The translations under genes were made by a program, and so were the position numbers. From positions 1 to 64,000 of the forward strand of contig NZ_CALFBQ010000008.1 in NCBI RefSeq assembly GCF_937951745.1: a DNA stretch of 64,000 bases, in the 5' to 3' direction. A model generated the notes under the pieces. It worked only from the letters and a program-made list of their open reading frames with translations, was not told where the DNA came from and made no database searches. This stretch comes from an uncultured Chloroflexus sp. (lineage in GTDB: Bacteria > Chloroflexota > Chloroflexia > Chloroflexales > Chloroflexaceae). How positions within the stretch are numbered: position 1 is the first letter of the stretch; the number at the start of each line of letters is the position of its first letter. This document shows, piece by piece, positions 24,873 to 43,345 of this stretch.

Positions 24873-24894
24873 GTGCGAACCTCCTTGGGTAGTG

Positions 24895-26142
24895 TTATGG
24901 CAATAATTCGCGCAACCAGCGGCGGAAGCGCTCGTATAGCGAACTCGTATCATCAGACGAAGACTGCTCAAGCGGCCGCCCGCCGTACCGCATTCCCCAT
25001 CGTAAAAGCCCAACGGCCGTTGCATACGCCGGCGAGTCAAGAGCGTCGTGTAAGCCGCCTAACCCGCTAGGAATGCCGATGCGTACCGGTAACCGCAAAT
25101 CGTCGCGCAACAAATCGTCGAACCGGCTGAGCTGCGCGCCACCGCCGGTCAAGACGATGCCCGCCGGCAACATGCTCTCGTAGCCGCTGCGCCGCGCTTC
25201 GTCGACGATCAACTCGATCAGTTCTTCGGCGCGCGCTTGCAAGACCTGTCTTAGCAGATAGGCGCTGATCTGCTGCTTTTCCCCTACCGTCAACGTCTCG
25301 GCATCAATCAGATCGCTTTCGTCACCCGGCGCCGGCGGGTTGCCGGCGATGGCGCTGCCATAGCGCAGTTTGAGATATTCGGCGGTGTTGGGCGGCGTGT
25401 GCAGCACGTAGACAATATCGTTGGTAAAGTGCTGACCGCCCACCGGGATCACGCCGGTGTGCCACACCCCGCCTTGGGCAAAAATTGCGAGGTCGGTTGT
25501 CGCGCCGCCAATATTGATCAGCATCACCCCGCGCTCTTTGTCGTCATCGCTGAGCACTGCTTCCGCAGCGGCTAACGGTTGCAAGACCAGATCGTCGATC
25601 TGGACCCCGGCCCGCTCGACGCTGCGAATCAGGTTTTGAATCGCCATTGCTTCGCCAGTGATGATGTGGGTCTCTACTTCCAACCGTAGGCCGCTCATCC
25701 CGATCGGATCGCGAATACCATCGTTGCCGTCGATCACATAGGCACGGGGAATAATGTGAATAATCTCGCGCTGGGTCGGCAATGCTACGGCCTGCGCCGC
25801 TTCGATGGCCCGCGCCACATCGTGGCGCGAAATCCCATCGGGATCCTGCACCGCCACCACCCCCCGGCTATTAAGTGAGGAAATATGGCGCCCGGCAATC
25901 CCAACAAAGGCATGGTTGATACGCAACCCGCTGGCCCGCTCGGCCTTTTCCAGACTGGCCTCAATAGCCGAGGCCGCATCGTCGATATTGACGACCACCC
26001 CTTTATCAATCCCACGGCTGGGCACCATTCCCACGCCAAGAATATTCAGCCGCCGACCATCGCCGATTTGGCCGACGATAGTACAGATTTTGTTTGTGCC
26101 AACATCTATCCCGACAATGGTGCGTGCCATGGTTCGTGCCAT
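24895..26142 (-). CDS. ftsA: Cell division protein FtsA
   Basis: The 415-residue actin-fold protein tethers FtsZ to the membrane. Phosphate-binding motifs [16 protein letters not shown] and [14 protein letters not shown], the adenosine motif [11 protein letters not shown], and the 1C domain specific to FtsA are visible. The C-terminal [16 protein letters not shown] is the amphipathic membrane-targeting helix. Two ATGs 12 bases apart begin nearly identical codons (MARTMART), suggesting a short tandem duplication; the first (26142) has GAGGAC at good spacing. Confidence 0.95.
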
Positions 26143-26172
26143 AGTGTCCTCGCTGCCTGCCGCAGACGGCGC

Positions 26173-26991
26173 TCACGGCCTGCCGTCGGTGCGGTTTTGG
26201 TAATATGGGTTGATCGGTCGTAAATCGAGATAGGTAAATGGTGTACCATCAGAAAGCACATACGCCAATATCGTCAGTTTGCGTTCGAGCCGCTCACTGC
26301 GGCCAAACACGATCATCTGATCTTGGGCGGTACGCACAAAGACGCCTAAACCGAAATCCCAGCCGATCTGGGCCGGTTGCAAACCCAACTCATTCGGCAA
26401 CAACAGAGCCAGTTCGCGCGCCAGCGCCAAAGCGTCGGTGTCGAGCCGCATATTCGGTTCGACCGGCAAATGAGAAGTATCAACGATGACAAGCGCATCG
26501 TCTGGCGGCGGCGCCGGCGCCGGCTCAATCACATAGCCCTGCCGGTCAACCAGATAATCGATCCCGCCAGTGCGCCAATAGACCGCCGGCTGGCGCTCGA
26601 CAATCACAATCCGCGCCCGGTCGGGCAGGATCAGACTCAGCCGGGCATGCTCGACAAAGGGACTAGCCAGCAACGGCGCGATCGTCTGCTCTTCATCAAT
26701 CAGCCAGATTGGCCGCCCGCGCAACGGGATAGCGTCCACAATCCGCTCAGGGCTAAGAAACTCCACCCCTACTACTTCGACAGTCTGCACGCGGAATTGG
26801 CTGCTGAAGAGCGCATAAAAGAGGGCCAAACAGCTCACGGCAAAGATTGCGCCGCTGGCAATCCGCCCGCTGTGCAAGCTATCAAGCAAGCGCCGGCGCC
26901 AACCCGGCACAGCCGGTTTATCACTGGGCCGGCGCGCTCGCTGCCGGCGCGCGGCAACTCGTTCGCGTGTGTTTGGCGGATTGTATTCCAT
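26173..26991 (-). CDS. ftsQ: Divisome protein FtsQ/DivIB
   Basis: About 272 residues: a basic cytoplasmic N-terminus (RERVAARRQRARR), one transmembrane segment (GAIFAVSCLALFYALF), a POTRA domain (RVQTVEVVGVEFLSPERIV through SLILPDRARIVIVERQPAVYW) and the FtsQ/DivIB beta domain. It links FtsL and the synthase pair to the ring outside the membrane. A GTG at 27012 would add seven residues; the ATG at 26991 is chosen, although its ribosome-binding site (AAGGG) is rather far upstream. It is placed between ddl and ftsA, as in many bacteria. Confidence 0.9.
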   Translation of the reverse strand: MEYNPPNTRERVAARRQRARRPSDKPAVPGWRRRLLDSLHSGRIASGAIFAVSCLALFYALFSSQFRVQTVEVVGVEFLSPERIVDAIPLRGRPIWLIDEEQTIAPLLASPFVEHARLSLILPDRARIVIVERQPAVYWRTGGIDYLVDRQGYVIEPAPAPPPDDALVIVDTSHLPVEPNMRLDTDALALARELALLLPNELGLQPAQIGWDFGLGVFVRTAQDQMIVFGRSERLERKLTILAYVLSDGTPFTYLDLRPINPYYQNRTDGRP

Positions 26992-27021
26992 AATCTTGTG
27001 TATACCCTTCACTCCCGCCGG

Positions 27022-28098
27022 TTATGCCCTATGTCCGGCCCGCGCTAACGCCAATGCCACCAGCCGGTCGAGCAGCCGGGGATAAGGCAGGCCGCTCGCG
27101 GCCCACATCTTGGCGTACATACTGATTGGCGTAAAACCGGGCATCGTATTCACCTCATTTAGCCAGATGGTGCCCTGATCGCGGTCGAGCAAGAAATCAA
27201 CCCGCGCCAACCCCGCCCCATCAATCGCTTGAAAGGCCTGTATCGCCAGCGCCTGCACCTGCGCGATCTGGACTGGCGTGAGCGCCGCCGGCACAATCGT
27301 TTGCGAGCCGCCATCGATATACTTGGCGTGGTAGTCATACCACTCACCGGCGGGAATGATCTCGCCGGGAATGCTGGCTTCAATCTGATCGTTCCCCAAC
27401 ACCGAAATCTCGATTTCGCGCGCCGGGATGCCTTGCTCGACCACGATCCGGCGATCGTAGCGGGCAGCTTCGTGCAGCGCAGCGATCAATTCCGCCCGAT
27501 CACGCGCTTTGCTGACGCCAACGCTACTACCGAGATTGGCCGGCTTGACAAAGATTGGGAAGCGTAACGCCGCTTCGATCCGGTCGCATACCGACTCGAT
27601 GGCCGCCAATTCAGCGCGCCGCACTAGCAACCACGGCAACACCGGCAAGCCAGCGGCGGCAAAGGCCGCTTTCATCAAGCCTTTATCCATACCGACAGCG
27701 CTGGCCGCGACGCCGCAACCGACATACGGCACGCCAGCCAGCTCGAGCAACCCCTGTATGGTGCCATCTTCACCATACGGCCCGTGCAATACAGGAAAGT
27801 AGACATCAGCCGCAGGCAAAGCCCACCCCGGCGCGCCAACTCGCCCTAATTCGCGCACCGGGCCGGGAGTAGCCATCGTAGCACTGGCCGGCAAGCGGGC
27901 CGGATCGGCGGTTGCCATCAACGCCGCTAACGCGCCGGTGCCGTGCCACCAGCAGCCGTCTTTGCCGATACCAATGGTTTCGATGTGGTATCGTTTGGGA
28001 TCGAGGTTATTGATCACGGCATGCGCTGAAACCAGCGATACCTCGTGTTCACCGCTCTGCCCGCCGAAGATGACGGCAATCGTGATCGGTTGGCTCAT
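27022..28098 (-). CDS. ddl: D-alanine--D-alanine ligase
   Basis: The 358-residue ATP-grasp enzyme makes D-Ala-D-Ala for the peptidoglycan stem. Motifs: VIFGGQSGEHEVSLVSA at the start, LHGPYGEDGTIQGLLELAGVPYVGCG, FVKPANLGSSVGVSKA, and a metal site in INEVNTMPGFTPISMYAKM (seen as LNEVNTMPGFTPIS). The ATG has GGGAGG upstream. The gene starts after a roughly 260-base gap from murB, the largest gap in the second half of the dcw cluster. Confidence 0.95.
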   Translation of the reverse strand: MSQPITIAVIFGGQSGEHEVSLVSAHAVINNLDPKRYHIETIGIGKDGCWWHGTGALAALMATADPARLPASATMATPGPVRELGRVGAPGWALPAADVYFPVLHGPYGEDGTIQGLLELAGVPYVGCGVAASAVGMDKGLMKAAFAAAGLPVLPWLLVRRAELAAIESVCDRIEAALRFPIFVKPANLGSSVGVSKARDRAELIAALHEAARYDRRIVVEQGIPAREIEISVLGNDQIEASIPGEIIPAGEWYDYHAKYIDGGSQTIVPAALTPVQIAQVQALAIQAFQAIDGAGLARVDFLLDRDQGTIWLNEVNTMPGFTPISMYAKMWAASGLPYPRLLDRLVALALARAGHRA

Positions 28099-28357
28099 TG
28101 GCCGCCTCCCGGAACCGTATCATCGATCGCTGAACCGATCGTTTTTTGAATAAACGAAGTAGTCAGGAAAATTTTGCGCAGGATTTCGTTCATGTTGATC
28201 TTGAATTTGATTTGAGCTAAGCATTTGAAACGATAGCAGACTCAGTAATGGATCAAGCAGGTTTTTCAGTACGCAACTTTTTAATCCTTCTGTGGGCCGG
28301 CATCCCACACCCTCTTCCCATCCTCGGAGCGCAGGCAGCTCAGCTCGCCCGCGCCCC
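28099..28357. other. Intergenic spacer inside the dcw cluster (murB to ddl)
   Basis: About 260 bases with an A+T-richer part near ddl (28140-28270) and a GC-rich part near murB. It could hold an internal promoter for ddl-ftsQAZ, but no clear -35/-10 pair was found on the minus strand. Confidence 0.4.
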
Positions 28358-29266
28358 CTATCTCCCCACGCCCTCAATCACCCGAACCTCAAGTTGCAAC
28401 GTTATCCCAAACCGTTCGGCAACAGTAGCGCGAGCCAGTTCGATCAGAGCCAGAATGTCGGCAGCACGGGCTTGGCCGCGATTAACGATGTAGTTGGCGT
28501 GGATCGGGCTGATCTCGGCGTCGCCGATCTGTACGCCTTTGAGACCGGCAGCTTCGAGCAAGCGCCCAGCGCTCTCGCCGGGTGGATTTTTAAATACGCT
28601 GCCGCACGAACTGCCCGCCGGCGTTTTGCGTTTCCGCTCGGCGGCAATCGCTGCCATCCGCGCCGCCAAGACCGCCGGATCGGCCCGCCGCAGGCGAAAG
28701 CGTCCGGCCAACACCAGCGGGGGAATGCCTTCCGCCACCAGATGCTTGAGCGCGCTCTCGCGGTACGCATACGCCAACGCGCTCACCGGCCACTCCACCC
28801 GTTCGCGTCCGTTGAGCAATAGCTCGGCAGCAATCAGCACACTGGCGGTATCGCCACCATAGCAACCGGCATTGCCGACAATCGCGCCGCCGATCGCGCC
28901 GGGCAACCCTTCGGCCCATTCCAAACCTGCCCAGCCCATTGCCGCCAACCGGCGCGCCGTGCCTGCCATCGGCGCACCTGCCTCGATCCACAACTCTGCC
29001 TCATCACCTGCTTCGCGCAATGCCCAGCGCTGGCCGCGATACGACGCGATCACACCGGCAAAGCCCTCATCACGCACCAGTAAATTGGTGCCGCGACCCA
29101 CCCAGATCAACGGCAAGCCTTGGGCGGTCGCCCACGCCGCCAATGCGATCGCCTCATCAGGGGTGGCCGGTTCAGCATAATAGCGCGCCGGCCCTCCTAC
29201 CCGCCATGAGGTATGGCGCGCCATCGGCTCATCGGTGTGAAGCGTGATTGGCAGCGTCTCATTCAT
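28358..29266 (-). CDS. murB: UDP-N-acetylenolpyruvoylglucosamine reductase MurB
   Basis: The 302-residue FAD enzyme reduces UDP-GlcNAc-enolpyruvate to UDP-MurNAc. Evidence: [30 protein letters not shown] for FAD binding, [19 protein letters not shown], the active-site [10 protein letters not shown] with the proton-donor Ser, and [11 protein letters not shown]. It belongs to the shorter type II MurB. Its ATG overlaps the murC stop by eight bases. Confidence 0.95.
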
Positions 29267-30692
29267 AGATGGCCTCCGTCTGCGCAGCGCGCAACCGTTC
29301 CAACGTCAACGCCGCTACCCGATCGCTATCGCCCGCACCGAGGGTCAAGACCACATCGCCGGGCCGGGCCACGGTGGCGATCAGCGTCACCGCTGCGGTT
29401 GGAGCGCCAGCGTAATGGGCAGTGATGCCGTGAGCCACCAGATGCGCCGCCAGCTCAGCCGCCAGTGCCGCCGGATCACCCTGCTCACGGGCCGGATAAA
29501 CATCGCCCACTAGCACCACCGCCGCTTCTCGGCAAGCATCGGGCCACGCTTCCCACAAACTGCGCGTGCGGCTGAAAGTATGCGGTTGCAGGTAGACGAT
29601 CACCCGCTGGCCGGGGTAACGCTGCTGCGCCGCTGCGATAGTGGCCTGCACTTCGGTCGGGTGATGCGCATAATCATCAATCACCGTCACCCCCGCCGCC
29701 TCGCCGCGCCATTCAAACCGCCGACTACTGCCGCGATACGTTGCCAGCGCCACCGCTGCTGCGTTGAGATCGGCCCCCCATAACGCCGCCGCCGCCAACG
29801 CCGCTGTCGCGTTGCGCACGTTATGCAAGCCGGGCACCGCCAACGTCACCCCCGCCGCCAACCGGCGGGCAAATGTCCGCCGGTCGTAATACCAGAGTTC
29901 GAACTGCTGGCCAGTCGCGGCGGCCTCCACCCGACTCGCCGTCCAATCGAGTGGGGCCAGCCGGCACGAAACCGGATCGCACGCAATCTGTTCGTCGATC
30001 CCATAGAGGCGAGCTTGGCCATCGCTATCCAACGCCGCCGCGCCGGGATCATCGGCGCAGAGCAACAAACGGCGCGGATCGCGCACCTGCCGGGCAAAGG
30101 TTGCAAACGCTGCGGCATATGCATCGGCAGATGGGTAGATATCGGGATGATCCCACTCGACGTTGGTGACAATCGCCAGCGCCGGCGTCAGGGCCAGAAA
30201 TACCCGATCATACTCATCGGCCTCGATCACCAGCGGCGCTGCCGGGTCGCCCCACTGCGCGCTTCCGCCAAGATCGGGCGCCTCGGCGCCGATGAGAAAG
30301 CCGCACGGAATGCCACCGGCCCGCAGGGCCAGCGCCGTCATCGCACTGGTGGTCGTCTTACCGTGGGTGCCAGCAACTGCGATGACCGGACGCTGGGCCG
30401 ACCATGTGCGCCAGAGATCGGCCCGGCTCAGGCGGGGAATACCGAGCGCAGCGGCTGCTTCGAGTTCAGGATGCGAGCCACGAATGGCGGCAGTGGCTAG
30501 CACAATATCGGCTCCACGTACATACGCTGCGTCGTGACCCTGCCAAATCTGCGCCCCCCGCAACGCCAACGCCGCCGTCGCCCGATTAGCAGCCAGATCA
30601 GACCCGCTAACCGTATGGCCTTGGTCAAGCAACAGGTGGGCAATGGCGCTCATGCCAGCCCCAGCAATTCCGATGATGTGATAGTGACTCAC
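29259..30692 (-). CDS. murC: UDP-N-acetylmuramate--L-alanine ligase MurC
   Basis: The 477-residue ligase adds L-Ala to UDP-MurNAc. [20 protein letters not shown] at the N-terminus binds the UDP part, [18 protein letters not shown] is the P-loop, and [28 protein letters not shown] and [16 protein letters not shown] are Mur ligase marks. It starts with GTG and overlaps the preceding membrane protein gene by four bases. Confidence 0.96.
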
Positions 30693-31333
30693 GGCTTCCA
30701 GACCTTTGGGAAGTTGAACAAGATTAGCAAACCCAAAATCATAAAGAAGATGGCAATCAGCGAAGGTAACAAGATGCTAACATCAGGCAACACATTCAAG
30801 AAGGTCGCAATCGGCCCTTCAAATGTGCCGCCGCCCTCGATAAACTCACGCCAGAACACGACTGCCGCGTTCGACCAGAGAAGCGCAATCAATGCACCTA
30901 CAAACAGGCCCAGCGGGCGAGCTAGCTTTTCCTTGGGCGGCCCCTTCCAAGCGGCCTTGCTATCAAAAAACATTCCCAGCAAGATCAATGCAATAAAGGC
31001 CATGGTGCGAAAGAAGAGTGGCACCTGAAATCCCGGCGTGATCAGCGGGTCGAGCGGCGGGGCTAGGGTGGGATCATTCCCGATCAGAAACGCCACGAAG
31101 CGCGGCGCATTGACCCACAACCGGTTAATCACCTCAACCACAAATGTACCGCCGCGCACGCACAACACATACGCAATAATTGTCCAAATCGCAAGGGTCA
31201 ACAGATTGCGCAAACCCTGCTGATAACCGGCATAACCACCCAACGCCATCAGAATGAGCAAAATCGTCACGCCGTTGAGATTAACAGTAATAGCTGTCTG
31301 CCCAAGGGGGAGCACCATCCATTGCTCAATCAT
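30689..31333 (-). CDS. Conserved-position membrane protein in dcw cluster, unknown
   Basis: The 214-residue protein has about four hydrophobic segments: [35 protein letters not shown], an [12 protein letters not shown] segment, and [16 protein letters not shown] at the end. The layout (small membrane protein with a GYxxGxRxxLLxL-like first hairpin) is reminiscent of CvpA/colicin V-production-like proteins, but I do not see enough to name it. It overlaps murG and murC by four bases on each side (ATGA and GTGA), so it is translated with the wall-synthesis enzymes. A role in lipid II or division is inferred only from position. Confidence 0.75.
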
Positions 31334-32529
31334 GCCGAACTCCTCTGCGCGAGGCCAATCAGCGCCATAGCCAAAGCGTGGGCCGCATCAGGACGGGCCA
31401 GCGCGCGGCTACGAGCTGCCATCTGCTTCCGCATCCCCCCATCCGTCAGTAATTGCCGCACCGCCTGCGCGAGCGGCCCTTCGGCTGGATCACCATTACC
31501 CAGCATCGCCTGATCGGCGACCTTCAGTGCCGCACCGCGTTGCACCAGATAATCAGCATTTTCATCTTGATGCACATACGGATAGGGTACCAACACCGCC
31601 GGCAACCCCACCGCCGGCAATTCGGCTAATGTCGAAGCGCCACTGCGGCAGACGGTCACATCTGCCGCTGCCAGCGCCGCCGTCATACTCTGTGCGCTGC
31701 CGCTTTCGAGATAGGGGAAGAGCAGATAGCGCGCGCGCAACGCTGGTTCAAGGCGCGCCGCCGCTTCTTCCAACCATACCTGATCGCCTTCGCGTCCACA
31801 GACGTGAATAATGGTACAAAGCGGCAGCAACGTTGGCAAGAGTGTAGCAATCGCCCGATTCACGCTCCGCGCCCCCCGGCTACCGCCATAAACGAGCAAG
31901 ACCATTTGGTCGGGCGCAATCCCAAACGCGGCCCGCGCTGCCGCCCGATCGATCGTAAACAGTTCGGGCCGCACCGGATAACCAGTGACAATCGCCCGGC
32001 GGTGGCCTTCGTGCAACCCCAGCCGCGGCAAGGCATCGCTCACGCTCACCGCTGTCAGATCGGCGATCCGGCTCAGCAACCGCACCGCCAAACCGGGCAC
32101 CACGTCGGGCAGGTAGATCATCGTGGGAATACGCCGGAGTTTGGCGGCAACGAACAATGGCACACAGACATACCCGCCGGTGCCGAGGATTGCGTCTGGT
32201 CGTTCGCGACCGAGCAACTGCACGGCCGCCACCACACCGCGTAGCAGGATCAGCAGTGACCGCATTATCTGCACCGGCCCGCGCCCGCGGATGGCCGCTG
32301 CCGGCAAGGCGCGAAACGGCAACGCGCTCTCGCGGGCGACAATCCGCTCTTCCATCCCGCCCACACTACCAACATACACTACCTGCACCCCTTCAGCGAG
32401 CGCGTTGGCGACGGCTAAGGCGGGATACACGTGGCCGCCAGTTCCGCCACCCGACAGGATCAGACGGAGGGGGTTCGGTTTGGAGGTAACGTTTGGATGT
32501 TGTACTAACTGGTTCTGACCGATCAACAT
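31330..32529 (-). CDS. murG: Lipid II glycosyltransferase MurG
   Basis: The 399-residue GT28 enzyme adds GlcNAc to lipid I. The N-terminal loop LILSGGGTGGHVYPALAVA is intact, as are VYVGSVGGMEERIV, GTGGYVCVPLFVAA and GASTLAELPAVGLPAVLVPYP. The only plausible starts are ATG 32529 and TTG 32526, because no other start codon lies before the glycine loop. The gene therefore overlaps the 3' end of ftsW by 137 bases in another frame, far more than a usual coupling overlap. There is no strong ribosome-binding site. Confidence 0.94.
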   Translation of the reverse strand: MLIGQNQLVQHPNVTSKPNPLRLILSGGGTGGHVYPALAVANALAEGVQVVYVGSVGGMEERIVARESALPFRALPAAAIRGRGPVQIMRSLLILLRGVVAAVQLLGRERPDAILGTGGYVCVPLFVAAKLRRIPTMIYLPDVVPGLAVRLLSRIADLTAVSVSDALPRLGLHEGHRRAIVTGYPVRPELFTIDRAAARAAFGIAPDQMVLLVYGGSRGARSVNRAIATLLPTLLPLCTIIHVCGREGDQVWLEEAAARLEPALRARYLLFPYLESGSAQSMTAALAAADVTVCRSGASTLAELPAVGLPAVLVPYPYVHQDENADYLVQRGAALKVADQAMLGNGDPAEGPLAQAVRQLLTDGGMRKQMAARSRALARPDAAHALAMALIGLAQRSSA

Positions 32530-33667
32530 GGCGTGAAATGTTCAACAAGATGCCCACTGCCATTAAACAACTGATCAGCGATGAGCTGCCATACGACAGA
32601 AACGGCAGCGTCAAGCCGGTAAACGGAATGAGCGCGACCGTGACCGCAATGTTAATAAATGCCTGAAACACCAACCACGATGTAATCCCGACCGCCATCA
32701 GTGCCGCGAACGGTGATGGCGCGCGCGCTGCAATCCGGTAGCCACGAGCGGCGATAATGACAAACGCGATCAAGACGGCAAGTGTGCCAACTAACCCCCA
32801 TTCTTCGCCGATAATCGCATAGATGGTATCGGTATGCGGCTGCGGCAACCAGAGATACTTTTGCCGACTCATCCCTACGCCTTGACCGAAGATCCCGCCA
32901 CTGCCTAGCGCGTACAGTGCATGGATGATCTGATACCCCTCGGCGCTGGCCCGTGACCATGGATCAAGAAACGCTTCCCACCGCCCGCTCCGAAAGGTCA
33001 CGATCAGCGCCCAAAATGCCGTTGCCCCCAATAGCGCCGCGCCGCCGACGTGCAAGAGATTCGCACCCGCAGCAAAGAAGATTGCGCCCCCGATCAAAAC
33101 TACCACGATGGTGGTGCCTAAATCGGGTTGTAGCATAATTAGACCGCAGATAAACCCTAGCATCACCGCAAACGGCGCTAACCCATACGTTACATTGCCG
33201 AGCCGGTGGCTGCGCCGTGAGAGCCAATGGGCAAAGTAGATAATCATCGCCAGTTTGGCAAATTCTGACGGCTGAAGACTGAAAATGCCAAGCCACCCTT
33301 CGCCGAAGCGGATCCACGACCGCGCGCCGTTGACCTCGGTCATACTGGCCGGCAAGATCAACACGACTGCCAACAAGACCAGCGCCCCAACCATCAGATG
33401 GATCGAATAGCGTTGCCAGATCCGGTGATCGATCCGTTGCACGACGAACATTATCCCAAAACCAATGAGCGCACCGGTAATCTGCCGCAAGGCATAGTAG
33501 AACGGATTGCTTTTGAACACCGCCGCCTCGACAAAGCTGGCGCTATAGACCATCACCAGCCCGAACGCTGTTAGACCAATTACGGTCGCCAGCAATACCC
33601 GATCAGGTGGGTGCGTGGCGCGATCGAACAGCGGGATTGTAGCAGGTGATGGTTCAGAGTTGGTCAT
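32393..33667 (-). CDS. ftsW: Peptidoglycan polymerase FtsW (SEDS family)
   Basis: The 424-residue SEDS protein has ten hydrophobic segments. It polymerises glycan strands at the septum with FtsI. Marks: VMVYSASFVEA, FSLQPSEFAKLAMIIYFAHWLS with the conserved region near TM4-5, LQPDLGTTIVVV, IIGEEWGLVGTLAVLI and TGLTLPFLSYGSSSLISCL. The last 45 residues (RSEPVSTTSKRYLQTEP, then basic) form a cytoplasmic tail encoded entirely within the overlap with murG. The ATG at 33667 has AGAGGAC five bases upstream; an in-frame ATG at 33682 is less well placed. Confidence 0.95.
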   Translation of the reverse strand: MTNSEPSPATIPLFDRATHPPDRVLLATVIGLTAFGLVMVYSASFVEAAVFKSNPFYYALRQITGALIGFGIMFVVQRIDHRIWQRYSIHLMVGALVLLAVVLILPASMTEVNGARSWIRFGEGWLGIFSLQPSEFAKLAMIIYFAHWLSRRSHRLGNVTYGLAPFAVMLGFICGLIMLQPDLGTTIVVVLIGGAIFFAAGANLLHVGGAALLGATAFWALIVTFRSGRWEAFLDPWSRASAEGYQIIHALYALGSGGIFGQGVGMSRQKYLWLPQPHTDTIYAIIGEEWGLVGTLAVLIAFVIIAARGYRIAARAPSPFAALMAVGITSWLVFQAFINIAVTVALIPFTGLTLPFLSYGSSSLISCLMAVGILLNISRHVDRSEPVSTTSKRYLQTEPPPSDPVGWRNWRPRVSRLSRRQRAR

Positions 33668-34153
33668 ACTGTCCTCTTTCATCGTGCTCGCAACTGTAGA
33701 CTGAATGTGATACTTCCGTCACCGGCTGCAAGGCGATCGGCGCTGAGCGAGCGATCTTCTGCTGCGAGCGCGGGCCGCTGACCCGCGTCCCTGTCTCGCC
33801 CCTTGAGGAGCGGATAGATCATTTGGTCGAGTACAACCGTTGATCGCTGTGCGCTGCCTCAAAGACCGGCTCTGCACTCCCCTTTTCCGCATTAGTGAAA
33901 GAGGGGCTGGGGGTGAGGGTGAACCGGCGCATCGCACAGCCATTACCCTCATCTTCGCTTATGGGTTCTCTCCACCCTTGAACTCGCACTTGGCGGGCCA
34001 ACGGCCCGCGCCCCTCTCACTCGCCCGAAACACGGGTGGCGCGATCGCAGCAATGCTTGCGCTAGCGCGAGCACACCTATCGGAAACGCCCGGTAGTTTG
34101 CTTGCCACACTCCCTATCGGCATGTTCATCGACAACCGGTGGCAAACCCGCCG
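33668..34153. other. Noncoding gap in the dcw cluster with dispersed repeat words
   Basis: About 485 bases between the rhomboid gene and ftsW. They hold a GC-rich GCGGGCCGCTGACCCGC palindrome-like word (33768-33784), a CCCCTTTTCC...AGAGGGGCTGGGGGTGAGGG hairpin (33880-33925) and GGCGGGCCAACGGCCCGC (33993-34010). No gene is supported. This gap splits the cluster into two tightly packed blocks. Confidence 0.55.
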
Positions 34154-34966
34154 TTACGCCGGGGTGACTAAACGCACTAGCGCCATCATCACCAGAGTAA
34201 TCGCCATTGCCCACAGCCAGCCCTGCGCCGGAAAGCGCCGGATCAGCAACGGCGGAAAGAAGCGCAGGTCAATCGTAAGCCGGGGCGACAGCGCCATCCC
34301 GATCAGCACGCCACTGACCAACCCTCCCAAATGCCCCCAATTATCGATGACCCCTTGCGCGGCAAACCCGATCAGCAGGTTGATAAAGGCAATCGCTGCG
34401 ATGCCGCGCACCTGATTGCGGCCGAATTCACCCAACGCTTGCCGGTTGAGGTAGTAAAAGATGCCTAAACCGCCGATCAAGCCGAAGATTGCACCACTCG
34501 CGCCAACTGCCGGCGCCGGTGAGAGCGCATACGACGCGATGCTGCCGCCTAGCCCGCTAAGCATGTAGAGCGTCAGAAACCGCCCGTGCCCATAGAAGCG
34601 TTCAGTTTCCGGCCCCAACACCGAGAGCGCGTAACCGTTGAAGAGGATATGGATCAGATTGGCATGTAGAAAGACGGCTGTCAGCAACCGCCACACTTCG
34701 CCGTTAGCGATCCGCTCATTCACCTTCGCCCCTAGCGCCACCAACACCGGAAACGCTGGTTGGAAGACGGAGCCGCTGAGGGCACTGGCTAACACATACA
34801 CCATCCCAATCGCCCAGAGCAGGCTATACGTCACAACCGGGCGCGGCGGCAGCAGGGGTGCGGGCCGCGGTGGCTCATCGGGCACATCAGACCGGCGGCC
34901 AAATTCCCGTTCGGCCCGGCGCAAAAACTCTTCGATCTCGTCGGGTTCATTAGGCGGGCGTGCCAT
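34154..34966 (-). CDS. Rhomboid-family intramembrane serine protease
   Basis: The 270-residue protein has an acidic/Arg-rich N-terminal extension of about 45 residues (PDEIEEFLRRAEREFGRRS), then six or seven hydrophobic segments. Rhomboid marks: HANLIHILFNGYALSVLG (the HxxxN region), VGASGAIFGLIGG with catalytic Ser in GASG, and NWGHLGGLVSGVLIG with catalytic His. The substrate is unknown. The ATG at 34966 has GGGAG upstream and overlaps the end of murD by 17 bases. Its place inside the wall-synthesis operon suggests cleavage of, or control over, an envelope or division protein; this is inference. Confidence 0.9.
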   Translation of the reverse strand: MARPPNEPDEIEEFLRRAEREFGRRSDVPDEPPRPAPLLPPRPVVTYSLLWAIGMVYVLASALSGSVFQPAFPVLVALGAKVNERIANGEVWRLLTAVFLHANLIHILFNGYALSVLGPETERFYGHGRFLTLYMLSGLGGSIASYALSPAPAVGASGAIFGLIGGLGIFYYLNRQALGEFGRNQVRGIAAIAFINLLIGFAAQGVIDNWGHLGGLVSGVLIGMALSPRLTIDLRFFPPLLIRRFPAQGWLWAMAITLVMMALVRLVTPA

Positions 34967-36365
34967 GAGCTTGCTCCCCGGCGCGAACGGCAGCCAACTC
35001 GCGCACAATGAGGCGAAACGCTTCGCCGCGATGAAATTCATTCCGAAACATGCCGAAACTCGCGCAGCCGGGTGAGAGCAATACAACGCCGCCGGGTTGA
35101 GCGAGCATGCGAGCCTGCGCCACAGCGACTCGCAAATCATCGAAGGGGCCGATCACCGGCAACGACGGCGCTTGCGCTTGTAACAATGCTCGCAGGGTCG
35201 GCGTAGCGCTGCCGGCCAAGAGCACGACCGCTGCGGCGCCTTTCGCAATGGAGTCTGCTAATGCCGCTAAATCCAGATTCTTGTCGGCCCCGCCAGCCAA
35301 CAATACGATTGGCCCCGGCACCGTCGCCAGCGCCACTGCGGTGGCTGCCGGATTCGTTGCAGTGGTGTCATTAATATAGCGTACACCATCGATCGTCGCT
35401 ACCAGTTCGAGCCGGTGTTCAACGCTGCTCACAGTATGCAGCGCCGCTGCAATGGCGGTAGGGTCAATCCTAAACCGGTAGGCCAGCGTCGCCGCCGCTA
35501 ACGCATTGGCCGCGTTGTGTTCCCCCGGCAACCGTAGATCTGACCGGTGAAACAGGATCACATCGCGATAGCGAAATGCGCCATCAGCCGTTACCGTCGC
35601 ATCAGCGGTCGGATCGGTCAGGCTGTAGCTGATCACCCCTTGCCTCCCGCCGCCCCACTCCTGCGCCTGTTCCGGCGGCAAGACCGCGACGCCGTCCGGC
35701 CCTTGATGGGCCATAATCTGCCGTTTGGCATTGGCATAGGCTGCGAGTGAACCGTGCCAATTAAGATGATCGTTCCCCAGATTGGTCAGAAGGGCGTATG
35801 CCGGACTCAGCCGCGCTTCACCCAATCGTTCGAGCTGAAAACTGCTCAATTCCAGCACCACCGGCGTCTGCGAACCGATCTGATCGAGCGCCTCGAGCGC
35901 CGAGACGCGCAGATTGCCTGCCACTACCGTATCGGGATAGCGTTGCCGGATCATTGCTGCCAACAACAAGGTGGTGGTCGTTTTGCCTTTAGTGCCGGTT
36001 ACACCGAGGATCGGGCCGGGGCAAGCACGGAAAAAGAGGGTCATCTCGGTTTCGATCGGCACGCCGCACGAGCGGGCCAGCGCCAGCCACGGCGAGTCGG
36101 GACGCACCGCCGGATTAACCACCAGCATCTCGGCGGCACGAATATCTTCGGCGCGATGTTCACCTAACGTATAGCGCACTTGCTTGCCGAGTTCGGCGGC
36201 AAAAGCGTTAAGGCGGGCAATCGGTTCGGCCAGCGCCTCTGGCGAAGCAAGGTCGGTCACTGTCACGTCGGCCCCGTGGCGCAATAGCCAGCGGGCCACA
36301 CCTAACCCGCCGCCATGCACGCCCAAGCCCATGACCAACACTCGTTTTCCGGCCACCGCAACCAT
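34950..36365 (-). CDS. murD: UDP-N-acetylmuramoylalanine--D-glutamate ligase MurD
   Basis: The 471-residue ligase adds D-Glu. Marks: VLVMGLGVHGGGLGVARWL, P-loop ILGVTGTKGKTTTTLLLAAM, NLGNDHLNWHGSLAAYANAK, LPGEHNAANALAAATLA and YINDTTATNPAATAVAL. ATG 36365 is joined to the mraY stop as TGATG; a GTG one codon upstream is also possible. The 3' end overlaps the rhomboid gene. Confidence 0.95.
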   Translation of the reverse strand: MVAVAGKRVLVMGLGVHGGGLGVARWLLRHGADVTVTDLASPEALAEPIARLNAFAAELGKQVRYTLGEHRAEDIRAAEMLVVNPAVRPDSPWLALARSCGVPIETEMTLFFRACPGPILGVTGTKGKTTTTLLLAAMIRQRYPDTVVAGNLRVSALEALDQIGSQTPVVLELSSFQLERLGEARLSPAYALLTNLGNDHLNWHGSLAAYANAKRQIMAHQGPDGVAVLPPEQAQEWGGGRQGVISYSLTDPTADATVTADGAFRYRDVILFHRSDLRLPGEHNAANALAAATLAYRFRIDPTAIAAALHTVSSVEHRLELVATIDGVRYINDTTATNPAATAVALATVPGPIVLLAGGADKNLDLAALADSIAKGAAAVVLLAGSATPTLRALLQAQAPSLPVIGPFDDLRVAVAQARMLAQPGGVVLLSPGCASFGMFRNEFHRGEAFRLIVRELAAVRAGEQAHGTPA

Positions 36366-37468
36366 CACCGGCCCCCATCACGCTCTTGCATAATAGCAGG
36401 CGCCTGATTCACCCGCGTCTCGACCCGTGGCGGCCCAAAGATCAGCGCCAGCGAAATCCCCACCATTGCCGCCACCGTCCCGATCAACACGAAGCGTTGC
36501 GTCACCTGTGGCTGGCTCCAGCCGAGCAATTCAAAATGGTGGTGGAGCGGGGCCATCTTAAACACCCGCCGGCCCTCACCGTAACGCCATTTCGTCCATT
36601 TAAAATAACCGGTCTGGATCATCGTTGAAAGCGCCTCAATCACGAACACAATTCCGATTACCGGCAAGAGCAGCCATTGCTGCGACTGCAAGGCCACCAC
36701 GGCGAGGGTTGCTCCCAACGCCAACGCCCCCAGATCACCCATAAACACCTGCGCCGGATAGGCGTTGTACCACAGGAAAGCGGCGCACGCACCGACAACG
36801 GTAAAACAGAACGCCATCAGGTTGGTGAGGCGCGGCTCGGCGAGAAAGGTGATTACGCCATACGCGCCAAAGGCGAGGGTCAAATTCCAGCCAGCCAGAC
36901 TGTCGAGGCCATCGGTAATGTTCACGGCATTCGAGATGAACACGATGATCAGCACCGCAAGCGGGATAAACCATAGGCCGATATTGACCTCGCCGACAAA
37001 GGGAATCTGCACCAAACCTTCGTGCTCTAACCCGTATGGCTGCGGTAGGTAGAGCGCAAGACTAGCGACGAAGGCCACCGCCATCATGATCCAAAACTTA
37101 AACCGGGCCGTGAAGCCATGCGTCTTGGAACGCGAGCCGGTCAGCGACAACCAATCATCGATCCCACCTAAGACGGCGAAACTCACCATCACGCCGAGCG
37201 GCAACAGCATTGACCAGCGATCAACCAGATTGAAGAGCGCGGTCAACACAACTACGGTGCTGACGATCATGATCCCACCCATCGTCGGCGTGCCCACCTT
37301 GACCAGATGGCTCTGCGGGCCATCGGGCCGGATGCGCTTGCCCAGTTTATGTTTGCGGGCGAATCGCACCCACCATGCGCCAACGATCAGGGTTAGCGCA
37401 AATGCAGCAGCGGCGAGCAACAGGGCGCGCGCCATATCTTGAACCAACACTGCACGCAGGACGCTCAC
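36365..37468 (-). CDS. mraY: Phospho-MurNAc-pentapeptide transferase MraY
   Basis: The 367-residue membrane enzyme forms lipid I on undecaprenyl phosphate. Marks: IRPDGPQSHLVKVGTPTMGG, GGIDDWLSLTGSR, the NITDGLDSLAG aspartate motif, MGDLGALALGATLA, and KMAPLHHHFELLGW with the HHH motif. Ten hydrophobic segments fit. It starts with GTG, preceded by AGGAG, and lies 30 bases after murF. Confidence 0.96.
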   Translation of the reverse strand: MSVLRAVLVQDMARALLLAAAAFALTLIVGAWWVRFARKHKLGKRIRPDGPQSHLVKVGTPTMGGIMIVSTVVVLTALFNLVDRWSMLLPLGVMVSFAVLGGIDDWLSLTGSRSKTHGFTARFKFWIMMAVAFVASLALYLPQPYGLEHEGLVQIPFVGEVNIGLWFIPLAVLIIVFISNAVNITDGLDSLAGWNLTLAFGAYGVITFLAEPRLTNLMAFCFTVVGACAAFLWYNAYPAQVFMGDLGALALGATLAVVALQSQQWLLLPVIGIVFVIEALSTMIQTGYFKWTKWRYGEGRRVFKMAPLHHHFELLGWSQPQVTQRFVLIGTVAAMVGISLALIFGPPRVETRVNQAPAIMQERDGGR

Positions 37469-37498
37469 GCAACTTCTCCTGTTATCATGGGGTAACGC

Positions 37499-38962
37499 TC
37501 AGGCTTGGAGCGCGGCAACGATTGTTTCCATCTGCACACCGCGCGATCCTTTAATGAGTAGACAATCACCAGAGCGGATCATCTGATTGAGCAGTTCGAT
37601 TGCCGATTCGTTATCAGGGCAGATTGCCACCCGATCGAGCGGCATGCCAGCCGCTAATGCCGCTTCAACCATTGTCTGTGCTTGCCGGCCAACCGCCACC
37701 AACCAATCAGCCGTCTGAGCAGCGGCAGCACCCACTTGCCGGTGCCCTTCTTCGGTTGCCGCCCCTAATTCGAGCATCTCACCTAACACGGCGATCCGGC
37801 GGCCCGGCGTCTCGGCCAACACGTTCAGCGCGGCGATCGTTGATAACGGTGCAGCATTGTAGGTGTCGTCAATAATCGTCACCCCGGTCTGGCTCTGCAC
37901 CACCCGCAGGCGCAACTGCTCACCGGGTTCGCGCAAACCGGCTTCAATCGCTGCCCAATCCAAACCTAACACCACACCAGTCGCGATTGCCGCCAGCGCC
38001 GTATAGGCGTGGTGCTTCCCGATCAAGGGGGTACGTAAGCGATACTGCTCGCCTTGATAGACGACCGTTAGCGCTATCCCGTAGAGACCATAGCTAATCA
38101 CTTCGGTCACGCGCACATCGGCGTGCGGCGCATAGCCATACGTTAGCACCCGCGCCGACGTGCGCGCCGCCATTGCTGCCACCCGCGGATCATCGGCGTT
38201 GAGGATGCACCAGCCATCAGCCGGCAACGACTCAGGCAATTCCGCTTTCGCATTGACAATTGCCTCGATACTGCCGAGCCGTTCGAGGTGCGACGGACCG
38301 ACATTGGTCACAATTCCAATGTGGGGACGAGCGAGCGCCGCCAAGAAGCGGATCTCACCCGCCGCCCACATCCCCATCTCGAGCACTGCCACTTGATGGT
38401 CGGCAGTTAGCCCGAGCAAGGTAGCCGGCAATGTCACATCACTATTAAAGCTACGTTGGCTTTTTAAGGTTCGCAATCGCTGGCTTACTACAGCCGCGAC
38501 GACCTCTTTGGTCGAGGTCTTGCCCACGCTGCCAGTGATACCAATCACCGTTGGCGTGAACATCTGCCGATGGTAGACGGCCACGCGCTGCAACGCTTGC
38601 AGCGGGTCGTCTACGGCGATGAGGAGGCATGCATCAGGCGGAACGTTCGCCAACAACGCGCTTTGGGTTGGCTCGATCAACCGCCATGGCCGGGCTGCCG
38701 CTGCCAGATCGGGAGCCAACGCCGCGAGCGTCACCGGCGACACCAACGCTGCCGCCGCGCCGCGCGCCACCACATCGGGTAAAAAACGATGCCCATCGGT
38801 GCGTTCGCCGGCCAACGCTACAAAGAGCGATCCCGGCGTCACCTCGCGCGAATCGGTCACCACCGGACCGATCAGCCGTCCGGCCCACAGCGGCGGCACT
38901 GCCACCTCCTGTCGCGTCGCGCGCGGTTGCACCCCATACAATAAATTGTCGAGCCTGATCAA
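37499..38962 (-). CDS. murF: UDP-MurNAc-tripeptide--D-Ala-D-Ala ligase MurF
   Basis: The 487-residue ligase adds the dipeptide made by Ddl. Marks: TDSREVTPGSLFVALAGERTDGHRF at the N-terminus, P-loop GITGSVGKTSTKEVVAAV, NVGPSHLERLGSIEAIVNAK, and IDDTYNAAPLSTIAAL. The start is TTG at 38962 with GGGAGGG upstream; no ATG is available in frame. murE, which often precedes murF, is not present; murF follows ftsI directly after a 135-base gap holding an extended -10 element. Confidence 0.94.
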   Translation of the reverse strand: MIRLDNLLYGVQPRATRQEVAVPPLWAGRLIGPVVTDSREVTPGSLFVALAGERTDGHRFLPDVVARGAAAALVSPVTLAALAPDLAAAARPWRLIEPTQSALLANVPPDACLLIAVDDPLQALQRVAVYHRQMFTPTVIGITGSVGKTSTKEVVAAVVSQRLRTLKSQRSFNSDVTLPATLLGLTADHQVAVLEMGMWAAGEIRFLAALARPHIGIVTNVGPSHLERLGSIEAIVNAKAELPESLPADGWCILNADDPRVAAMAARTSARVLTYGYAPHADVRVTEVISYGLYGIALTVVYQGEQYRLRTPLIGKHHAYTALAAIATGVVLGLDWAAIEAGLREPGEQLRLRVVQSQTGVTIIDDTYNAAPLSTIAALNVLAETPGRRIAVLGEMLELGAATEEGHRQVGAAAAQTADWLVAVGRQAQTMVEAALAAGMPLDRVAICPDNESAIELLNQMIRSGDCLLIKGSRGVQMETIVAALQA

Positions 38963-39009
38963 ATCGCCCTCCCAACGTCGCCTTGCACGCCAAACGCCTC
39001 GCGGAGGCC

Positions 39010-39015
39010 ATTATA
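39010..39015 (-). promoter_or_regulatory. Extended -10 element before murF
   Basis: Minus strand TGC-TATAAT-GG lies about 48 bases before the murF start. There is no clear -35 box. It could be an internal promoter of the dcw cluster. Confidence 0.5.
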
Positions 39016-39097
39016 GCATCTCCGTTCCAACCAGCTTGGTTGAGCGCCGACCGCGGCAGATGATAATCAACTGAGAGAGCGAATACCATACCAACAC

Positions 39098-40906
39098 CTA
39101 CGGTTGTCCCGGACTGACGAGCGACCGATCCGGCGGTACGTGTGCGTACCGCAGCAACTGATCAACAATGTTGTAGTAAACCGGAATCGCCGTTAACACG
39201 CCAAGCGTATCTTTCTTAGGCCGATCGATCTTGACCAAGACCACAAAACGTGGCTCATCAACCGGCGCAATCCCCAACACTGAACCGATGGTATAGATTG
39301 GGTCATAGCCGCCACCGGGCAACGGGATCGACGCGGTACCTGTCTTGGCCCCGACCCGATAGCCGGGGATCAACCACTGATCACGCCAATTACCGGTGCG
39401 CGGCCCCCAAACCACCGGAGCGTAGTGGTTCGCCGCCTCGACTAGCATCTCGCGCACAGCGCGAGCCACCTCCGGCTCAATTGGCTTGCCCGCCACCTGC
39501 GGTTGCATCGGTACACACTCATCGTTGCGGCAGATCCGCTGCACGACGTAAGGCTGCATCATCACCCCATCGTTGGCGATAGCCGCCGCCGCCTGCACCA
39601 ATTGTAACGGTGTCACCGAAATCGCTTGGCCGTAGGCGTTGATCAAAAAGGTCAGCGGATTGTAGCCAGCGCCGCCGTAGAAATTGACAATCCCGCTCTC
39701 TTCGCCAGCCAAATCAACCCCGGTCGGTTGACCGAAGCCGAAGCGGGTCAGCGTGCGGTAAAACGCTTCCGGGCCAGTCAGTTCGTTAAACTGCAACGCT
39801 GCCACATTACTCGAATAGTAAAGCATGCCGGCCAGCGTCAATGGCCCGCGCGGTGCACCGTCGAAATTACGCAGCGTGCGACCATAGCGCACTACCCACC
39901 CCGGATCATCCACGGTGGTACTCGTCGTCACCGCACCCGAACTGAGTGCAGCACTGGCGGTAAACATCTTGAAGGTGCTACCCGGTTCATAGACCACGCC
40001 AATCGCCGGATTGCGCCCGTACACCTCCGGCGGATACTCTTGCCAGCGGTTGGGGTCGAAGAACGGCCAGCTCGCCATCGCGAGGATCGCGCCGGTACGC
40101 GGATCGAGCACGATGATCGTGCCGCCGTCGGCATTTTGCTCATCAATTGCCTGCTTCAACTCGCGCTCGGCTACCTGCTGGATGAACGGATCAATCGTCA
40201 ATTGGAGGTTGGCGCCATCTTGCGGCGGCAGCGTGCGTGAGAGGCTGGTGGCAATCGGGTTGCGGGCCGGATCGAATTCTCCCTCCACCCGTCCTTCCGT
40301 GCCGCGCAGCATCTGATCGTAATACGCTTCGATCCCGCTAATACCCTCGCCATTCAGATTCAACGCCCCTACCACCTGCGCCGCCGTAATCCCTTGCGGA
40401 TAGAAGCGCATCGGCTCGTAGACCAGCCGGAGGCCGGGTAGTTTGAGTTCGGCCACTTTCGCCGCCACCTCTGGTTCGAGCCAGCGTGCCAAGCGCACCC
40501 ACTGCCGGTCAGAGCGAAGCGCCGACAGAATCGGCTCGGCGGGAGCGCCGGTCAGACCGGCGACCAGCAAGGCAATCTCAGCTTTACGGTCTGCCGGCAC
40601 CTGCGGCGGAATCGCAAAGAGGCTTTGCCGTTCGACATCCATCGCCAGTACCGTGCCATTCGCATCGGTAATTTGGCCCCGGCGCGGGGCCAGTAGCACC
40701 GGCGTTTCAATCTCTAGCCGCGCTTTGCTGACCAACTCTTGGCTGCGCACCACTTGTAAATCAACTAACCGCACGGTTACGATCAGCATGATCACCACGC
40801 AACCAATCAATAACACCTGCAGCCGCCAGCGGGCTAGACGCCCGACCGGCGGCGTGACAGCCGTTGCGGAAGCGGTCGAATGTGTACGGCGAGTGGTGGC
40901 AGCCAT
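39098..40906 (-). CDS. ftsI: Septal transpeptidase FtsI (class B PBP3)
   Basis: The 602-residue penicillin-binding protein crosslinks septal peptidoglycan with FtsW. It has one N-terminal transmembrane segment (LQVLLIGCVVIMLIVTV), a pedestal domain (RRGQITDANGTVLAMDVERQ), and transpeptidase motifs PGSTFKMF (active Ser), YSSNVAAL (SxN) and GAKTGTAS (KTG). There are no PASTA repeats at the C-terminus. It starts 6 bases after ftsL. Confidence 0.96.
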   Translation of the reverse strand: MAATTRRTHSTASATAVTPPVGRLARWRLQVLLIGCVVIMLIVTVRLVDLQVVRSQELVSKARLEIETPVLLAPRRGQITDANGTVLAMDVERQSLFAIPPQVPADRKAEIALLVAGLTGAPAEPILSALRSDRQWVRLARWLEPEVAAKVAELKLPGLRLVYEPMRFYPQGITAAQVVGALNLNGEGISGIEAYYDQMLRGTEGRVEGEFDPARNPIATSLSRTLPPQDGANLQLTIDPFIQQVAERELKQAIDEQNADGGTIIVLDPRTGAILAMASWPFFDPNRWQEYPPEVYGRNPAIGVVYEPGSTFKMFTASAALSSGAVTTSTTVDDPGWVVRYGRTLRNFDGAPRGPLTLAGMLYYSSNVAALQFNELTGPEAFYRTLTRFGFGQPTGVDLAGEESGIVNFYGGAGYNPLTFLINAYGQAISVTPLQLVQAAAAIANDGVMMQPYVVQRICRNDECVPMQPQVAGKPIEPEVARAVREMLVEAANHYAPVVWGPRTGNWRDQWLIPGYRVGAKTGTASIPLPGGGYDPIYTIGSVLGIAPVDEPRFVVLVKIDRPKKDTLGVLTAIPVYYNIVDQLLRYAHVPPDRSLVSPGQP

Positions 40907-40912
40907 CGTTCG

Positions 40913-41281
40913 TTACTCATCTAAATTCGGCAGATTCGGAATCCGCACATAACGCAACTGATCAGGCGTTGGTTGGCGGAACCCCAATTCGGCGGCCCGT
41001 TTGAGGCGCGCCTCGACCGATTGCACGCGCGCCAATTGCTCTTGCAACTGCGAATACTCGCGAGTCAGTTGCACCTGCTGCTGGCGCAGCTCCACCAGCT
41101 CGTAGTTCATCCGCGCCACCAATCCGCTCTGCAAGAGGGTTAACACACTCAACAGGCAGCAGATTAGCGCCAGCAACAGCATATAGCGCGCGCCATCGAG
41201 CTTGAGATACCGCGAGAGATCAATCCGGCGCAGCCGTACTCGCCCCAACAGAGCTGGAATCTGTTCGCTTCTGACTGCCAT
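40913..41281 (-). CDS. ftsL: FtsL-like division protein
   Basis: The 122-residue bitopic protein has a basic N-terminus, one hydrophobic helix (YMLLLALICCLLSVLTLL) and a coiled coil (LRQQQVQLTREYSQLQEQLAR), ending with a GFRQPTPDQLRYV segment like other FtsL/septum-initiator proteins. FtsL has low sequence conservation, so the call relies on topology and position between rsmH and ftsI. The ATG at 41281 follows AGAGGAGG. It would pair with FtsQ and a FtsB protein to activate FtsWI. Confidence 0.85.
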   Translation of the reverse strand: MAVRSEQIPALLGRVRLRRIDLSRYLKLDGARYMLLLALICCLLSVLTLLQSGLVARMNYELVELRQQQVQLTREYSQLQEQLARVQSVEARLKRAAELGFRQPTPDQLRYVRIPNLPNLDE

Positions 41282-41304
41282 CGCGTTTCCTCCTCTAGCC
41301 GCAC

Positions 41305-42210
41305 TCACGCAATCCGAACGGCAACTCGCAATTTGGCGCTCCGCGCCCGCGGATTGGCAGCGACTTCTGCATCGCTGGCTACCACCGGCTTCTTGGTGAT
41401 GATGGCTAAGCGTGGTGCTTCACCAGCGGCCTCAGCGCGCAGAAATTGCTTGACGATCCGATCTTCGAGCGAATGAAAACTGATCACCGCCAACTTGCCG
41501 CCAAGGGTGAGCAGCGCAACCGCCTGCGGCAACGCCGCCGCCAACTGGTCAAGCTCGTGATTGACCGCAATCCGCAACGCTTGAAACGTGCGCGTGGCCG
41601 GATGGATCCGCCCGTGACGGCCACCCACGGCACGGGCCACAACCGCCGCTAAATCGGCAGTAGACCGAAATGGCTGCGAGCGCCGGCGTTCGACAATCGC
41701 GCGCGCAACCCGGCGCGCCGCGTGCTCTTCGCCATACTGAAAGATGATGTCGGCTAGCTCGCGCTCGCTCAAACGATTCACAAGATCAGCCGCTGTCGGG
41801 CCTTGCGTCGGGTCAAGCCGCATATCAAGCGGGCCATCGGCGGCAAACGAGAAACCGCGTTCCGGCGTATCAAGTTGGTACGACGACACCCCCAGATCGA
41901 ATAGAATGCCATCAACGGCGGCAAAACCGGCCTCTGTGGCCAATGCAGCCAAATCGGCGAACGATCCATGGCGCAAGACGGCCTGCTGGCTGAGACCGGC
42001 CTCAGCCAGTCGCTCAGCAGTGGCGGCCAATGCCGCCGGATCGGCATCTATCCCCAACAACACCCCGCCGGGTTGGGCGGCTTGCAACACGGCCAGCGCA
42101 TGCCCGCCACCGCCAACGGTCGCATCGAGATAGCAACCGCCGGGACGCGGGGCCAGCGCCGCAATGACTTCAGCTAACAACACCGGCGTATGTTGGAACG
42201 TCACCACCAT
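41305..42210 (-). CDS. rsmH: 16S rRNA (cytosine-1402-N4)-methyltransferase RsmH
   Basis: The 301-residue methyltransferase has [15 protein letters not shown], the SAM loop [35 protein letters not shown], and a C-terminal [16 protein letters not shown], all hallmarks of RsmH (MraW). Its ATG is fused to the mraZ stop as TAATG. Confidence 0.96.
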
Positions 42211-42641
42211 TAAATCCCTAACTTTCGCATCTGTTCGTCAAAGCGCGGGCCTTGACTAGCGAGCCGCTCTTCGACCTCGCGCCAGCGATCAGGCGCCCAC
42301 ACCTCGATAAAGGTGTCAAGACCCACCAACACCGCCTGATCGGCCAAGCCGCCACCTTCACGCAAGCTCTGGGGCAGCAAAATCCGCCCCTGCCGATCCA
42401 TTTCTTGCTCGGAGGCGTTGGCAAACAGCAACCGGCGCAACATGCGCGCATCTTCATCGGTCAACGACAGCGCGCTCACGCGGCGGGTCAAATCACTCCA
42501 GAACGGCAAGGGGAAAATCAGCAGACAACGATCAAACCCGCGGGTCACGACCATCCCACCGGCCAGCTCAGCACGAAAGCGGGCCGGAATTGCCAGCCGG
42601 CCCTTCTCGTCGATGGAATGTTCGTGTGTCCCCAGAAACAC
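42210..42641 (-). CDS. mraZ: Transcriptional regulator MraZ
   Basis: The 143-residue AbrB-fold regulator represses its own dcw operon. Two SpoVT/AbrB repeats are visible: [20 protein letters not shown] and the second one [16 protein letters not shown]. The start is GTG at 42641 (GTG-TTT-CTG-GGG), preceded by GCAGGAG; the longer frame upstream would place the operator inside the gene and lacks family similarity. Its binding site is visible just upstream (next entry). Confidence 0.95.
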
Positions 42642-42672
42642 GCTCGTTGCTCCTGCGTAGATAGGGAAGTCG

Positions 42673-42696
42673 CCCACTTTTCCCCACTTTTCCCCA
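42673..42696 (-). promoter_or_regulatory. MraZ operator: three TGGG boxes at 10-bp period
   Basis: On the minus strand the block reads GTGGGGAAAA twice, then GTGGG. TGGG boxes lie at 42696-42693, 42686-42683 and 42676-42673, each separated from the next by six bases (a ten-base repeat). This matches the direct TGGGN repeats with 5-base spacers bound by E. coli MraZ. They lie between the -10 box and the mraZ start. Confidence 0.85.
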
Positions 42697-42707
42697 CCTG
42701 CCGCCAC

Positions 42708-42847: not shown

Positions 42848-43345
42848 ATGAGCGAATCAGGGAACGAACTGAGCCACCTCGATGCAGCCGGGCATGCGCG
42901 GATGGTTGATGTCGGTAACAAGGCGATCACCGCGCGCGAAGCGATTGCGCGCGGAAGGGTCATTATGCAGCCGGCGACGCTCAGTCTGATTATGAGCGGG
43001 GGAATGCCTAAGGGTGACGTGCTGGCGGTGGCACGGGTGGCGGGGATCATGGCGGCCAAACGCACCTCTGAACTGATCCCGCTCTGCCATCTGCTCAACC
43101 TCAGCCATGCCAGCGTCACATTTACCCCTGACCCAGCCGGCAATGCGATTGAGATTGAAGCAACCGTGCGTTGCACTGGCCAGACCGGGGTCGAGATGGA
43201 GGCGCTCACGGCGGTGAGCATCGCTGCATTGACGATCTATGACATGTGCAAGGCAGTTGATAAGGTGATGCAGATCGATGGGATTCGCCTCATCGCCAAG
43301 CGAGGCGGGCGCAGCGGCGACTGGCAGCGTCCTGATCCGGCTTGA
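42848..43345 (+). CDS. moaC: Cyclic pyranopterin monophosphate synthase MoaC
   Basis: The 165-residue enzyme carries out the second step of molybdenum-cofactor synthesis. Marks: [23 protein letters not shown] at the N-terminus, [28 protein letters not shown], then [25 protein letters not shown] and a closing KRGGRSGDW. The ATG has GAGG upstream. It is divergent from mraZ and stands without moaA/E/D. The cofactor is needed by AioA and by the enzymes that XdhC and CoxE proteins would mature. Confidence 0.96.

Follow-up and report, generated by a model that had tools for sequence, protein, structure and literature searches.

Conserved position of a rhomboid gene within the dcw cluster of Chloroflexales, in the murD-ftsW interval

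The rhomboid gene and the cluster that surrounds it

The window, i.e. the whole 64,000-nucleotide stretch of DNA from an uncultured Chloroflexus sp. that we have analysed, contains a dcw cluster with the gene order mraZ-rsmH-ftsL-ftsI-murF-mraY-murD-rhomboid-ftsW-murG-(CvpA-like)-murC-murB-ddl-ftsQ-ftsA-ftsZ; this order has been read from the open reading frames (ORFs), with tblastn matches to it in relatives, and Pfam confirms murD, ftsW and ftsQ. All of these genes are located on the minus strand: the upstream genes mraY, murF, ftsI, ftsL-like, rsmH and mraZ, identified from ORFs and tblastn, occupy positions 36365..42707, murD occupies 34950..36368, the rhomboid gene 34154..34966, ftsW 32393..33682 (its start is probably the second ATG, at 33667, with GAGGA upstream), and the downstream genes murG, CvpA-like, murC, murB, ddl, ftsQ, ftsA and ftsZ occupy 23688..32529. 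The arrangement resembles the standard dcw cluster (mraZ...mraY-murD-[ ]-ftsW-murG...ftsZ), with the difference that in Chloroflexales a rhomboid gene is inserted between murD and ftsW. An earlier note on this DNA had described a 17-base overlap of the rhomboid with murD and had placed the rhomboid before ftsW within the cell-wall operon: the final 17 bases of murD, which ends at 34950, do overlap the rhomboid start, and ftsW does follow, but 471 bp past the rhomboid stop, across a spacer that the note leaves unmentioned.

The gene encodes an intact rhomboid intramembrane serine protease of 270 aa, with predicted protease activity and seven predicted helices, i.e. a core of six and a C-terminal one. 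In the Pfam profile search, residues 89-228 match the Rhomboid family PF01694 (2.7e-36, 125 bits against a cut-off of 22.6), and the catalytic residues occur in recognisable motifs: Ser157 in GASG, His212, the other half of the dyad, in IDNWGH / NWGHLGG, and His106 and Asn110 of the HxxxN motif (106-110) in HILFN. The complete rhomboid that the earlier note had recognised by its GASG serine and its NWGHLGG histidine is confirmed by the profile match and by the full set of catalytic motifs, HxxxN included; HxxxN, GASG and IDNxxH do not vary across an alignment of 13 divergent relatives, and the catalytic motifs are present throughout a larger rhomboid alignment. Translation starts at the ATG at 34966, with a ribosome-binding-like stretch, GGGGAG, located 5' of it; a longer form (start at 35140, 328 aa) has been rejected, as it has no ribosome-binding-like stretch 5' of its start and overlaps murD deeply, while the relatives keep the start at 34966.

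The AlphaFold2 model of the protein (pLDDT 87.8, pTM 0.80) consists of seven long helices and the short L1 helices, and its best solved structural relatives are iRhom1/2 and GlpG. It adopts the GlpG fold (Foldseek TMt, the TM-score by target length, of 0.70-0.83), and it shares with GlpG of E. coli and H. influenzae, apart from the fold (TMt up to 0.83), the Ser-His dyad, HxxxN and the L1 loop helices; it differs from GlpG in its sequence (23-25% identity), its extra C-terminal helix and its dcw location. The protein stays below the cut-offs of both the GlpG equivalog TIGR04239 (53.7 bits against 250) and the rhombosortase equivalog TIGR03902 (43.3 bits against 84), and is therefore a rhomboid, but not GlpG in the narrow sense. 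YqgP/GluP of B. subtilis, another bacterial rhomboid protease and also of the 6+1 helix type, is likened to it here by description, rather than by direct sequence comparison. As regards family membership, the protein is an ordinary rhomboid. The N-terminal helix 10-22 of the model is present in members of Chloroflexaceae and absent in the Herpetosiphon-like rhomboids, so a conserved N-terminal docking helix has been discarded as a general feature.

In both structure and sequence, iRhom1/2 rank with the best matches, which would agree with a non-proteolytic protein of the rhomboid fold, i.e. an iRhom- or derlin-like chaperone or scaffold that serves MraY, FtsW or membrane proteins related to them; Ser, His and HxxxN are nevertheless invariant in the 13 relatives, unlike in inactive rhomboids, and we regard such a role as highly improbable.

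The rhomboid is separated from ftsW by a spacer of 471 bp (33683..34153, minus strand), expanded in comparison with the 30-66 bp of four other Chloroflexus genomes. The spacer contains a multicopy interspersed repeat of ~185 bp (33803..33987, minus strand), which is matched in part at 24 further places of this genome, parts the rhomboid from ftsW in the window and in its nearest relative, and is common to the window and genome G267 but absent from G198. Judged by these comparisons, the 471-bp spacer is a recent local change of the window; if it contains a terminator or a promoter, ftsW may be partly uncoupled in this genome.

Several other features of the clusters have been observed. A CvpA-like membrane protein is encoded between murG and murC (30689-31333; Colicin_V PF02674 with an E-value of only 0.44); the gene is kept in all families of Chloroflexales and has a possible counterpart in G281 (L052). 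In genomes of the Roseiflexus and Herpetosiphon types, the gene of a TPR-repeat protein is inserted between murC and murB (L048 13925-15202, with similar ORFs in L049, L061 and L062); Chloroflexus does not have it. The dcw cluster of G134 contains two tandem mraY-like genes (L057, G134:C13, 11664-13787), and upstream of mraZ in the window, the opposite strand carries an ORF (42848-43345) that resembles MoaC, by eye only.

Conservation of the position within Chloroflexales

The comparison of Chloroflexales genomes has revealed the rhomboid in the murD-ftsW interval in 59 of 63, across all four families sampled (f1 36, f2 9, f3 8 and f4 6, from tables compared by eye); the count includes each orthologue that adjoins murD and/or ftsW and shares their strand. 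For G304 and G331, two of these 59, the contigs carry the ftsW side only, and in a third, G314, the order is mraY-rhomboid-ftsW and the site lacks murD (L157 3173-5111, G314:C39). The four exceptions consist of three genomes where the contig ends at the site (G301, G315 and G334) and one apparent loss, G238. Named records with the murD-rhomboid-ftsW arrangement in the genome scan include Oscillochloris, Roseiflexus, Herpetosiphonaceae and Chloroflexales bins, and the arrangement is kept across genomes whose murD identity falls to about 49%. The earlier note had proposed a synteny check, with unrelated positions in related genomes as the outcome that would speak against its claim; since the position is kept throughout the order, that outcome does not occur within Chloroflexales. 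The placement of the rhomboid in the dcw cluster is not a local accident: chance placement is excluded because the synteny holds in 59 genomes, and the synteny, along with the sequence constraint, rules out chance or mis-annotation.

In G314, the best murD-like match (33%) occurs on another contig, by relocation, replacement or bin error.

In the genome of G238, which is 98% complete, no PF01694 match above threshold has been found, and the other dcw genes are kept. Its murD reading frame stays open across three short repeats and leads in frame into AALLLAIAAMALLLPPAS, a match to the C-terminal rhomboid helix of G061, a congener of G238; thus, G238 is an apparent loss of the rhomboid, with the last helix seemingly left joined to MurD, although the short repeats make an assembly artefact possible at this murD. 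The region itself (L054 8900-9170, G238:C150) may represent a natural MurD-membrane-anchor fusion, or such an artefact. As an apparent natural loss, G238 can serve as a strain or bin for comparison.

Among the genomes compared, the arrangement has been found only within the order. In three genomes of the same class that belong to other orders (G281, G118 and G295), ftsW directly follows murD across a gap of roughly 50-250 bp, and the rhomboids sit elsewhere, away from murD-ftsW; among 41 further Chloroflexota genomes with both coordinates, compared by eye, none has a rhomboid adjoining murD. Among the best 80 loci of the genome scan, where close relatives of the window are perhaps omitted, only loci of the Chloroflexales type have dcw neighbours.

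About 12 orthologues start by a 4-base overlap with murD (ATGA/GTGA), and the start of ftsW is usually located 27-100 bp past the rhomboid across the orthologue loci; the recurrence of the 4-base overlaps suggests that the rhomboid is co-transcribed with murD. The earlier note had also named a separate promoter of the rhomboid, with no division-linked expression, as an outcome against its claim: a scan with the sigma-70 consensus only has found no promoter-like site around the rhomboid (33600-36500), against 0.9 in shuffles.

Descent and selection

In a tree of 87 rhomboids, all 47 from dcw clusters fall on one side of a single branch (SH-aLRT 92), while those of other Chloroflexota and of Clostridia fall outside this clade. 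The tree comes from a quick search, with SH-aLRT values instead of bootstrap, and its inner branches are partly unresolved; within this resolution, it gives no evident sign that the families have exchanged their dcw rhomboids horizontally. The single clade is therefore consistent with one insertion on the stem of the order, followed by vertical descent.

Between the window and three Chloroflexus genomes, the rhomboid has a dN of 0.09-0.12 and a dN/dS of about 0.05 in two pairs, with dS saturated in the third; the dN/dS values are approximate because dS is near saturation. The other dcw genes have a dN/dS of 0.02-0.12 in the same comparison, and the rhomboid, like its dcw neighbours, is under purifying selection.

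In the open-licence literature that we have searched, we have found no report of a rhomboid arranged in this way with murD and ftsW in the dcw cluster. A survey of the dcw cluster that traces 17 genes has concluded that there has likely been no gene gain since the origin of the cluster, and its text mentions neither a rhomboid nor a protease (PMC8871954). The fixed dcw place, which we have not found described in this literature, belongs to a protein from a known family and represents a lineage-specific gain in a cluster that has been described as having mainly losses and relocations.

Possible roles of the dcw rhomboid

The physiological roles and substrates of bacterial rhomboids are mostly not known, and a rhomboid that an entire order keeps between murD and ftsW offers a concrete, testable lead by guilt-by-association. 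Several bacterial rhomboids have been linked to protein quality control (table in PMC12615303; PMC7231995), with YqgP/GluP reported in connection with FtsH-assisted quality control of membrane proteins (PMC7231995). The reading that we favour, with about as much confidence as doubt, is that a single event on the Chloroflexales stem would have brought an active rhomboid of the GlpG/YqgP type into the murD-ftsW gap, and that vertical inheritance would have kept it there as a gene co-transcribed with the rest of the dcw operon; the enzyme would most likely cut membrane proteins close to the outer surface of the cytoplasmic membrane, and this cleavage would serve membrane-protein quality control or processing, with the enzyme being made in step with envelope synthesis.

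The position alone is no proof of a shared function, because the cluster order is generally very stable here. The rhomboid might instead be a housekeeping protein unrelated to division that has been trapped in a strongly expressed, order-stable operon, where moving gains nothing. This is a real possibility, although we lean away from it: the nearest rhomboids of other Chloroflexota classes sit away from dcw, so that the ancestral function did without a tie to this cluster, the CvpA-like gene and, in some families, the TPR gene are also located inside the cluster, G238 has kept its other dcw genes without the rhomboid, and G314 has kept the rhomboid without murD at the site; against it, the position and its tight overlaps have been kept through the deep divergence seen in murD, with one apparent loss in 60 informative genomes. 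Two readings fit the data about equally: simple operon inertia, and quality control or processing that keeps pace with the synthesis of the envelope.

A closer tie to division has also been considered. The N-termini of FtsL, FtsI and FtsQ lie in the cytoplasm, a topology that rhomboid substrates do not usually have, G238 lives without any detectable rhomboid, and the other Chloroflexota examined have their rhomboid at a different location; a dedicated protease that cuts a divisome or wall protein and tunes septation, perhaps in filamentous trichome-formers, is thus unlikely, even though the murD-ftsW place is fixed in an order whose class has been described as having filamentous growth (PMC11218635), and an old report, cited in PMC7231995, describes an effect of B. 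subtilis yqgP/gluP on cell division that was not rescued. The broader proposal of a protease that was recruited once into dcw on the Chloroflexales stem and works specifically in septation or in the assembly of the envelope in these filamentous bacteria appears doubtful. A connection to trichome growth can only be suggested, because the Anaerolineae, which are also filamentous Chloroflexota, do not have the arrangement. The central claim of the earlier note, i.e. a division- or wall-coupled protease that cuts an envelope protein, is not supported: the loss of the gene in G238, where the rest of dcw is kept, and the location of other Chloroflexota rhomboids away from dcw speak against it, and operon inertia together with a housekeeping rhomboid for quality control accounts for the data about as well.

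The genome of the window encodes a second rhomboid (G000:C61), which resembles the dcw rhomboid in its PF01694 match and in having a GASG motif of its own, but is located outside dcw; it belongs to a second rhomboid family of Chloroflexales genomes that forms a separate clade (SH-aLRT 99). The gene immediately downstream of this second rhomboid encodes an SDH-type ClpP-like serine protease (PF01972, 1.4e-123; L162 6917-8521, G000:C61), and the two may form a two-protease unit.
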